From Cupriavidus pauculus (GTDB taxonomy: Bacteria > Pseudomonadota > Gammaproteobacteria > Burkholderiales > Burkholderiaceae): DNA of 64,000 nucleotides. A model generated the notes under the pieces. The model did no database searches, was not told where the DNA came from, and saw nothing but the letters and a program-made list of their open reading frames with translations. The translations under genes were made by a program, and so were the position numbers. Below are positions 11,608-16,007 of the stretch, piece by piece; the first letter of the stretch is position 1; each line of letters opens with the position of its first letter. The stretch spans positions 2,418,001-2,482,000 of the forward strand of contig NZ_CP033969.1 in assembly GCF_003854935.1 (NCBI RefSeq). Direction: 5' to 3'.

Positions 11608-14196
<2,589 letters not shown>

Positions 14197-14221
14197 CCGG
14201 CGCGGCAGGCCGCAGCATCGC

Positions 14222-14249
14222 AAGGACCTCTTCGGAGGTCCTTTTTTTT
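14222..14249 (+). terminator. Intrinsic terminator of clpB
   Basis: AAGGACCTC (14222-14230) and GAGGTCCTT (14235-14243) form a perfect stem closed by a TTCG tetraloop and run into T residues up to 14249. It lies 26 bp after the clpB stop. Confidence 0.95.
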
Positions 14250-14275
14250 GCGCGACAGGTGAATGTCATCGATCA

Positions 14276-14410
14276 GGAGCCATCCGCGCCGGCGACGACG
14301 CCGAACGGGCCGCCCAGCTCCACCACGTGGCCCACGAAAAGTGCTACATCGCCAACTCGGTCAACTTCCCGATCCGCTGCGAGGCCGTCATCGACGCTGC
14401 CGCCGCCTGA
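14276..14410 (+). pseudogene. C-terminal remnant of an OsmC-family gene
   Basis: This frame reads through about 44 codons to a TGA at 14408-14410 and encodes ERAAQLHHVAHEKCYIANSV followed by NFPIRCEAVI. That closely resembles the C terminus of OsmC-type peroxidase-like proteins, including the conserved Cys of AHEKCYIANSV. No start codon, ribosome binding site or N-terminal two thirds of the gene is present; the clpB terminator lies directly upstream. The simplest reading is the stump of an osmC-like gene removed by deletion. It was probably once a complete gene downstream of clpB. Identification rests on remembered family sequence, not a search. Confidence 0.7.
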
Positions 14411-14433
14411 CTTTTGGCGTCATTGCCAGCAGC

Positions 14434-14475
14434 TTGACCTGCATCAATCCGAGAACGGGAACGGGTCGCTACTAT
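14434..14475 (+). promoter_or_regulatory. Class II FNR/ANR-type promoter
   Basis: TTGACCTGCATCAA (14434-14447) fits the FNR-family consensus TTGAY-N4-RTCAA at every defined position. A TACTAT -10 hexamer lies at 14470-14475. Placing it at -12 to -7 puts +1 at 14482 and the box centre at exactly -41.5, the standard class II activator position. No -35 hexamer with usual spacing is present, as expected for an FNR-dependent promoter. Confidence 0.72.
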
Positions 14476-14481
14476 CGACTC

Positions 14482-14582
14482 CGTCATGGAGATGCGGGGG
14501 CGCTCTTCATGACTTGTCTACCCGTTTCCGGAATGGAAACTTGACCCGCAGCGCAACTCCGGCGCTGCGGGTTTTTCTTTTT
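14482..14582 (+). ncRNA. Candidate FNR-activated small RNA of about 100 nt
   Basis: The predicted transcript runs from the FNR-type promoter start to a strong terminator. Three hairpins can be drawn. The first has a 10-bp stem, GTCATGGAGA (14483-14492) with TCTTCATGAC (14504-14513), and an 11-nt G-rich loop. The second is GTTTCC (14524-14529) with GGAAAC (14535-14540). The third is the terminator at 14545-14571. A short unpaired stretch, TTGTCTACCC, lies between hairpins one and two and could be a base-pairing seed. The only reading frames are 8-11 codons and lack ribosome binding sites. The layout resembles that of FnrS of Escherichia coli, but no sequence similarity is claimed. Confidence 0.6.
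14545..14582 (+). terminator. Intrinsic terminator of the candidate small RNA
   Basis: CCCGCAGCGC (14545-14554) pairs with GCGCTGCGGG (14562-14571) over a 7-nt loop and is followed by TTTTTCTTTTT (14572-14582). No annotated gene directly precedes it apart from the OsmC stump, which is itself evidence for a separate short transcript. Confidence 0.92.
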
Positions 14583-14658
14583 GGGGCGCCGGCGATGTTC
14601 GGCATGCCCATATTCCCGCCCGATCTTATGCAGAAAACGTGCTTGGATCGGCGAAACC

Positions 14659-14677
14659 ATTCGTTCCGTTCAGATAG
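14659..14677 (+). promoter_or_regulatory. Candidate CysB-type control element upstream of sbp
   Basis: ATTCGTTCCGTTCA (14659-14672) matches ATTCGTTCTGTTTA upstream of cysT (21552-21565) at 12 of 14 positions, and both are preceded by a CGG-GAAA-like run. AGATAG at 14672-14677 could serve as a weak -10. The shared element before two sulfate-transport genes, with a CysB-type regulator nearby, suggests a sulfur-responsive activator site. A GC hairpin (14709-14729) lies in the leader between this point and sbp. The binding protein is inferred, not shown. Confidence 0.5.
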
Positions 14678-14764
14678 CCCCGCCGGTAGCCTGTCTCCCT
14701 GACAGAAGCCCCGCCGCACCAAGGCGGGGACATTTCACGACAACTCTGACGGGAGCAACCGAAG

Positions 14765-15772
14765 ATGATCCGCAAGCTGGCCCTGGGCCTCGCCGTACTA
14801 TCCGCCGTGGGCGCCGCCCCCGCGGCCCTGGCCAATACCAACCTGCTGAACGTGTCCTACGACCCCACGCGCGAGCTCTATGTCGACGTGAACGCGGCGT
14901 TTGCCAAGGCGTACAAGGCGCAGGGCGGCGATACGGTGCAGATTCGCCAGTCGCATGGCGGCTCGGGCAAGCAGGCGCGGTCGGTGATCGACGGGCTCGA
15001 TGCCGATGTGGTCACGCTGGCGCTGGGCTACGACATCGACGCGATTGCCGAGAAGGGGCTGATCAAGCCGGACTGGCAGAAGCGCCTGCCGCACAACGCG
15101 TCGCCGTACACGTCGACGATCGTGTTCCTGGTGCGCAAGGGCAATCCCAAGCAGATCAAGGACTGGAACGACCTGGTGAAGCCGGGCGTGCAGGTCATCA
15201 CGCCGAATCCCAAGACCTCGGGCGGCGCGCGCTGGAACTACCTGGCCGCGTGGGGCTATGCGCTGCGCCAGCCGGGCGGCAACGATGCCAAGGCGCGCGA
15301 GTTCGTCGGCCAGCTGCTCAAGAACGTGCCGGTGCTGGATTCTGGCGCGCGCGGCGCCACGACGACCTTCGTCGAGCGCGGCCTGGGCGACGTGCTGATC
15401 GCCTGGGAGAACGAGGCCATCCTGGCCATCAAGGAGCTGGGTCCGGACAAGTTCGACATCGTCGCGCCGTCCGTGTCGATCCTGGCCGAGCCGCCGGTGG
15501 CCGTGGTCGACAAGGTGGTCGACAAGAAGGGCACCCGCAAGGCCGCCGAGGCGTACCTGCAGTTCCTGTACACCGACGAGGGCCAGGAGATCGCGGCCAA
15601 GAACTACTACCGGCCGATCTCGGAGAAGGTGGCGGCCAAGTACGCGGCCAACTTCCCGAAGGTGAAGCTGTTCACGATCGACGAGGTGTTCGGCGGCTGG
15701 GCCAAGGCCCAGAAGACCCACTTTGCCGATGGCGGCTCGTTTGACCAGGTGTACCAGCCCGGCAAGCGGTAA
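14765..15772 (+). CDS. sbp: Periplasmic sulfate-binding protein
   Basis: Solute-binding component for sulfate (possibly thiosulfate) import, 335 aa. The signal peptide is [20 protein letters not shown] followed by ALA and predicted cleavage. The mature protein begins with the Sbp/CysP signature [15 protein letters not shown], then [29 protein letters not shown], both characteristic of the family. It starts at 14765 after GGGAGCAAC. Its permease and ATPase partners, cysT, cysW and cysA, are not adjacent but lie 6 kb downstream behind the sulfonate genes, which makes the whole stretch a sulfur island. A GC-rich hairpin (15780-15815) follows its stop. Confidence 0.95.
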
Positions 15773-15837
15773 TCACGATGGCGCGGCGGCGCGGCCAGTC
15801 ACGGCCCGCCGCGCCGCGCCCGACGAAGGAGCCCCAG

Positions 15838-15897
15838 ATGTCCGCTGTCCGCCCAGCCATATCCCCCCGCATCGCCCTGGCGCGATGTCCCGCCTGA
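15838..15897 (+). CDS. Putative 19-residue leader peptide upstream of ssuA
   Basis: A short frame, ATG at 15838 to TGA at 15895-15897, encodes MSAVRPAISPRIALARCPA. It has a strong ribosome binding site, AAGGAG at 15826-15831, at ideal 6-nt spacing; nothing else in the gap explains that signal. The peptide has one cysteine three residues from its end. It precedes the ssuA start by about 110 bp and follows a 10-bp GC hairpin (15780-15815). A leader whose translation senses cysteinyl-tRNA supply is a reasonable guess given the genes controlled. A non-functional chance ORF cannot be excluded. Confidence 0.45.
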   Translation: MSAVRPAISPRIALARCPA

Positions 15898-16007
15898 CCT
15901 GAAGTCTTTCCCACGCATGACGTACCCGCATGCCGCGCACCGCGCCGGCAGGGCGTCGTGCGGCCGCGTCACCGTCCCTGCCACATCGTCCGACTCCGAG
16001 GAAACCC

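Follow-up and report, generated by a model that had tools for sequence, protein, structure and literature searches.

A 64,000-nucleotide stretch of the Cupriavidus pauculus genome, referred to here as the window, raises the question of whether the interval between clpB (11608-14196) and the gene for a sulfate ABC transporter binding protein (sbp, 14765-15772) contains a gene whose product is an RNA and, if so, what switches it on and what it does. An earlier note, made from the letters alone, had put a candidate small RNA behind a class II FNR promoter at this place; as a gene in its own right, with such a promoter, a conserved box and its own terminator, the proposal is supported. As read from its sequence, the locus has its own promoter (a box centred at -41.5 and a -10 element, with no -35 element), its own terminator, siblings elsewhere and no conserved reading frame; it is, very probably, a genuine gene for a small RNA that low oxygen would switch on in FNR fashion, and one of a family of siblings in Cupriavidus. 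With good confidence we regard positions 14434-14582 as a complete gene for a regulatory RNA of about 100 nt, whose FNR/ANR-activated siblings would work in the manner of FnrS and AniS. Its features are collected in Table 1.

Table 1. Elements of the predicted small-RNA gene (locus A of C. pauculus), in coordinates of the window
Element	Position	Strand	Remarks
FNR/ANR-type box TTGACCTGCATCAA	14434-14447	+	centre -41.5 for +1 at 14482
-10 element TACTAT	14470-14475	+	-12, -11, -8 and -7 each 0.90 conserved in A-type orthologs
Predicted small RNA, ~101 nt	14482-14582	+	fold z -6.2; covariance-model family
Hairpin 1, apex GCG-GGGG-CGC	14483-14513	+	RNAfold; stem covaries
Unpaired UUGUCUACCC, which may be the seed of the A-type RNA	14514-14523	+	0.98 identity, 31 A-type orthologs
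Hairpin 2, 6 pairs	14524-14540	+	fold; sequence differs between loci
Intrinsic terminator and T-rich tail	14543-14582	+	stem 14543-14573; helix 97% of cells paired (62 copies)

The box and the TACTAT hexamer lie where the earlier note had placed them, and with a start at 14482, which is inferred from the position of the -10 element, the box is centred as it had claimed. Scanning positions 13000 to 16000 for sigma-70 sites with a -35 element gave none where 0.4 were expected, which is compatible with a class II site. RNAfold gives the predicted transcript a free energy of -50.9 kcal/mol (z -6.2), and none of 200 shuffled sequences was equally stable. An RNA of about 100 nt with three hairpins, previously folded by eye, is thus borne out, with 13 pairs in hairpin 1 (10, a bulged U and 3 more, around a GGGG loop) rather than 10, 6 in hairpin 2 and 12 in the terminator, whose claimed extent of 14545-14582 begins slightly earlier, the stem starting at 14543. 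Mechanical open reading frames of 147 and 93 codons cross the stretch, and the DNA 5' of the box is unconserved. A terminator-like stem (14222-14243) follows clpB. Between clpB and the RNA there is also a 38-codon remnant, DDAERAAQLHHVAHEKCYIANSVNFPIRCEAVIDAAAA (14294-14407, plus strand), which we take to resemble the C-terminal end of an OsmC/Ohr-type protein; similar pieces occur near the RNA in two other copies, L002 (84%) and L008 (75%).

Conservation of this arrangement was assessed first among the copies at the same locus, termed A-type, for which neighbour searches return clpB and sbp. A DNA search of 60 relatives gave a match in 35 of 36 genomes of the genus, that of C. pauculus included, and in none of the 24 others; the genome missed, G012, is 54% complete. 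We aligned 31 A-type orthologs, all distinct, with enough flanking sequence and gap-free on hairpin 1, leaving aside one copy cut by a contig end (L006), the plasmid copies and a copy in G032 in which box and stem are both damaged. A perfect TTGAYNNNNRTCAA box is found at -48 in 28 of the 31 and at -47 in the other three. Column identity rises from 0.40-0.44 in the flank upstream to 0.86 and 0.89 in the two half-sites and reaches 0.98 in both hairpin 1 and the linker (nt 33-42), so that the box, the -10 element and hairpin 1 are conserved in related genomes at A-type loci.

The RNA is not restricted to this locus. C. pauculus itself carries another copy on the minus strand (G000:C2:993822-993916); its hairpin 1 is of the same kind, its box stands at the corresponding distance, and a terminator of its own follows. 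A covariance-model search, which the earlier note had suggested as a check, was run with a promoter-free model (R1) on 399 genomes. It matched 106, among whose listed matches we count 60 genomes of the genus, each with one to five matches and a best E-value between 2.3e-23 and 4.4e-16; one of the five in genome G228 (L105) is a chance hit, and the rest of the 399 may include genomes of the genus that lack a match. The copies fall into four groups. Beside locus A there is locus B, including diverged forms first labelled B' and D, which lies downstream of what we take to be a GntR-type regulator and a dicarboxylate-type transporter. Locus C is carried on a second large replicon where assemblies show it, close to a gene for what we take to be a lysine/alanine-rich DNA-binding-like protein. 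The fourth group comprises plasmid (megaplasmid) copies, among them that on pHG1 of C. necator H16. The strict box is present in 61 of the 84 copies fetched, one copy (L006) is cut, and the remaining 22 have the TTAA variant TTAAYNNNNGTCAA. These 22 are the locus-C copies (L040, L079-L088, L090-L092, L095-L097, L100-L103 and L118), all of which have the variant in place of the strict box and most of which have TAGAAT as their -10 element; locus C is possibly under a different Crp/Fnr-type regulator.

The RNA stays while the neighbouring genes change between loci, and this bears on the alternative that it is a transcription attenuator or leader of the downstream sbp. In the window sbp is on the same strand, as it is in most A-type loci, and a piece of clpB or sbp lies within the fetched flank of 27 of the 31 A-type copies. 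Nevertheless, we think a leader very improbable, given that the distance to sbp ranges from about 175 nt to about 1.26 kb, that there is no sbp in the fetched flank of four copies (L008, L009, L027 and L028), that the next gene at the C. pauculus locus B is convergent, and that locus C and the plasmids offer other neighbours again.

Across the family, conservation is concentrated in particular parts of the RNA. In 62 aligned copies, which were found by similarity and so favour conserved parts, the hairpin-1 apex GCGGGGGCG is present in all, and GCGGGGGCGC, which adds the last C, in 61. Hairpin 1 and the terminator have 95.9% of their cells paired, compared with 30-54% in slid controls. The covariation score is 0.293 against 0.137 for shuffled alignments, none of 500 shuffles reaching it, in an alignment that was fitted to a model built on the same sequences and is nearly gap-free in hairpin 1; on the same alignment, neither pairs with a double change (201 of 500 shuffles) nor pair types (302 of 500) rose above shuffles. 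G-U pairs in the hairpin-1 stem favour an RNA over a DNA palindrome. By contrast with the apex, its stem and the terminator, which alone are common to all loci, the linker and hairpin 2 vary between loci and, within locus B, between clades, and three hairpins, the second included, are nevertheless predicted in all six siblings folded. The linker segment TTGTCTACCC that the earlier note had offered as a seed is accordingly conserved in A-type copies and is a feature of that type; the linker differs at loci B and C, and the apex, being common to all loci, is the feature of the whole family.

Another alternative is that hairpin 1 contains a very short coding gene, with an ATG at +5 and the reading MEMRGRSS-stop. 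An eight-codon frame of the form M-x-x-RGR-x-S is indeed kept in 34 of the 45 non-C copies among the 62. We give this reading almost no credence: ten of the 45 run past nine codons without a stop, one copy (L112) stops at codon 2, the 17 C copies read another frame, the changes in the stem are paired, and the leader would be 4 nt. Moreover, CGG GGG CGC has one synonymous change (in L047) where free wobble would be expected.

With regard to the range of the family, a pattern of box plus hairpin matches between one and four times in 58 of the 60 genomes of the genus, G012 and G032 being the two misses; the listed matches are 68-70 bases long, with a gap of 38-40 where 30-45 was allowed, and the reversed pattern has no hit in the same 60 genomes. 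Run over genome contigs, the pattern returned 73 stretches, 65 of them labelled Cupriavidus, two labelled Ralstonia sp. 25mfcol4.1, two labelled Burkholderiaceae bacterium 16 and four from elsewhere. The four off-genus hits inspected all lack the hairpin, as does one match within the genus (G024:C7). A family-wide model (R2) matched 17 of 399 genomes of the order, three of them of the same genus; all 14 of the remaining, weak order-level hits were inspected, and none combines hairpin 1 with the box. The other 46 genomes matched by R1 have best E-values of 1.4e-4 or worse, and the three such hits in other genera of the family that were inspected (L106-L108) lack box and hairpin 1. Within these searches of family- and order-level genomes, the RNA has been seen only in Cupriavidus, and what the earlier note had envisaged as an RNA of the Burkholderiaceae appears instead to be a multi-copy sibling family of this one genus. 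Three plasmid records match, two being pHG1 of C. necator H16 and the third a plasmid of C. taiwanensis, and nothing is annotated beneath the match on any of them. On pHG1 the A-type copy (L195, 9001-9102) is situated between phaP2 and hmpA, with a hypothetical gene 5' of hmpA and nap within about 5 kb of the RNA; hmpA is preceded by a separate FNR-type box at about 9760-9775 of L195.

What the box itself signifies can be judged from its other occurrences. There are 19 TTGAYNNNNRTCAA sites in the 6,177,826 bases of the C. pauculus genome (the reversed pattern occurs 4 times), and two of them belong to its two RNA copies; with only 19 boxes in 6.18 Mb, chance is a very unlikely reason for both copies to have one at almost the same spacing. 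About 42 kb ahead of the window the genome encodes Fnr, the only protein to score over the cut-off of the Fnr model (252 bits against 228), and two weaker matches are of Crp/Fnr type. Among the 17 other boxes are those preceding hemN, ccoN, nosZ, a siroheme decarboxylase gene and a P-ATPase gene best matching copper ATPases; further boxes precede genes for a cytochrome cd1 and for a universal stress protein. Both ccoN and hemN are classic FNR/ANR genes. The remainder lie at a desaturase or an L,D-transpeptidase gene, inside frames or near no frame, so that only some of the 17 are tied to expected genes and nine places are without assignment. These assignments come from two scans, the first covering ten proteins from eight of the 17 places (eight matched, an ApbE-type protein included) and the second six entries (five matched), in which an arbitrary piece of L119 matched nothing. 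The siroheme decarboxylase frame (L232, 322-1413, minus strand) scores over the cut-off for the beta subunit and below it for the alpha, as if the two were fused, and its TTGAYNNNNRTCAA box is about 55 nt upstream.

Activation by FNR or an ANR-type protein is thus well founded as far as binding sites can indicate, and the box does not discriminate FNR from other regulators of the ANR/DNR/NNR type. One could therefore envisage the same small-RNA family under another CRP/FNR-family activator, of the DNR/NNR type and responding to NO or nitrate, with a role in denitrification or NO stress instead of in the lack of oxygen as such. The two additional Crp/Fnr-type matches, the boxes at the nosZ, siroheme decarboxylase and cd1 genes, the position of the pHG1 copy near hmpA and nap, and the different box at locus C would all accord with this. 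We find it rather unlikely, however, because ccoN and hemN bear the same box and because RNA and box occur together in nearly all genomes of the genus, which may not all denitrify.

An FNR-type switch for a small RNA has clear precedents. FnrS of E. coli is an FNR-dependent small RNA with a class II site at -41.5 (PMC3032703, PMC8139620), and FnrS of E. coli and its relatives shares with the Cupriavidus RNA the FNR-type class II site at -41.5 before a small RNA, from which the latter differs in having several siblings in most genomes. In Neisseria, FnrS/AniS is described as a 108-nt RNA with a perfect box at -41.5, a 5' stem-loop, an unstructured stretch and a terminator (PMC3032703). Compared by description alone, the Cupriavidus RNA has the same size class, box position, 5' stem-loop, unpaired stretch and terminator, and departs from it in its three hairpins, nearly invariant G-rich apex and multiple loci. 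BrrF/BTH_s39 of Burkholderia is likewise a regulatory RNA of the Burkholderiales with conserved 5' hairpins; it is processed from the 3' end of hemP, is under Fur control through hemP and has no terminator stem (PMC7377471), whereas locus A lies between clpB and sbp with its own promoter and is not processed from the 3' end of hemP. The suggestion that the RNA is perhaps unrelated to fnrS agrees with Rfam, where fnrS has no match at the gathering threshold over the window, nor at E <= 5 over 14400-14620. Within the window only a group II intron (2132-2209, 71.4 bits) reaches the gathering level. For the RNA itself the best sub-threshold match is sX13 (RF02232; 23.8 bits, E 0.0085), well below the gathering score of 50 bits for that family. 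Our best reading, by analogy, is of an RNA functionally akin to enterobacterial FnrS and neisserial AniS/FnrS, but showing no sign of shared ancestry with them. No description of it was found in the literature searched; a study of strain CH34 with and without copper took 35 orphan starts as noncoding RNAs, and its noncoding-RNA tables may include this one, its main text being without the term 'FNR' (PMC7563307).

In seeking targets, we considered the A-type linker and the apex separately. The exact complement of the linker, GGGTAGACAA, occurs at four places in the C. pauculus genome, of which the RNA gene is one (the reversed pattern also occurs four times); one of the three others (L199, on contig C4) is followed after about 30 nt by a frame whose ribosome-binding site is good. 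The earlier note had supposed that the RNA represses aerobic functions, which is not supported so far by the two genes compared, sdhC and sodB. Against sdhC (26 of 28 loci) the linker gave -11.5, with -12.3 for shuffled sequences, and hence no signal. Against sodB (25 of 26 loci usable) it gave a mean of -18.9, with -10.1 for shuffled sequences, 1% of which were as low. That contrast carries little weight, however. The pairing site falls in the spacer of the apparent sodB promoter, flanked by TTTGCG and TACAAT and upstream of the likely sodB start, so the signal is no evidence of pairing with an mRNA; pairing is also uneven (among the 22 loci shown, 12 have -22 to -24 and 10 only -16 to -19), and of 2312 windows of genomic DNA, 62 reach -18.9 and eight reach -22. 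Upstream of sodB, a second conserved block (ACAAACTAACAT...CAGGGGGC) is present in most of the 22 loci shown (among L238-L263). The hairpin-1 apex had no signal on either sodB (-18.8 against -17.5) or sdhC (-16.9 against -16.6). Pairing between siblings, through the CCCC of some locus-B linkers and the G-rich apex, was considered and dropped, being absent from other locus-B copies. GGA is the binding motif of CsrA/RsmA, and binding of this protein was dropped in turn, since the GGA lies in a stem and is missing at locus C.

Hairpin 1 might instead bind some other protein, for example an RNA chaperone or a translational regulator, and titrate it at low oxygen with no pairing of the hairpin to mRNAs. 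That the apex, its stem and the terminator are the only parts common to all loci would suit such a role, and a GGGG tetraloop closed by three G-C pairs leaves little free seed. We judge it unlikely, because each RNA has a single hairpin of this kind, unlike sponges of the CsrB/RsmZ type, which have more than one, and because among A-type copies the conservation of linker nt 33-42 equals that of hairpin 1.

Our preferred reading, of a base-pairing RNA under an FNR-type switch, would operate as follows. A fall in oxygen would lead FNR, or a closely similar regulator of the ANR type, to bind the box and, as at class II sites generally, to contact RNA polymerase, so that the siblings would be switched on together. 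Judging from the class to which they appear to belong, the RNAs would in turn work in trans, in all likelihood through base pairing to mRNAs; the apex of hairpin 1, nearly invariant as it is, may serve as a common recognition element, and the unpaired linker and hairpin 2, being locus-specific, would give each sibling its own targets. More tentatively, the siblings, up to five on chromosomes and megaplasmids, could form a co-activated battery tied together by the GCG-GGGG-CGC module for one partner, be it a protein or a common RNA, in which case an acquired replicon would bring its own oxygen-switch RNA with a replaceable targeting part.

A review from 2021 describes the part that riboregulation plays in PHB synthesis by C. 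necator as undeciphered (PMC8401924). A genus-wide set of RNAs with a low-oxygen-type switch, of which pHG1, the megaplasmid of H16, carries one, would offer a concrete way in that lends itself to direct testing in laboratory strains. Both C. necator and C. metallidurans are mainstays of work on bioproduction and metals. Within this set, a hairpin that hardly varies stands beside linkers that change freely, a contrast that would amount to a natural experiment on how sibling small RNAs change their targets.
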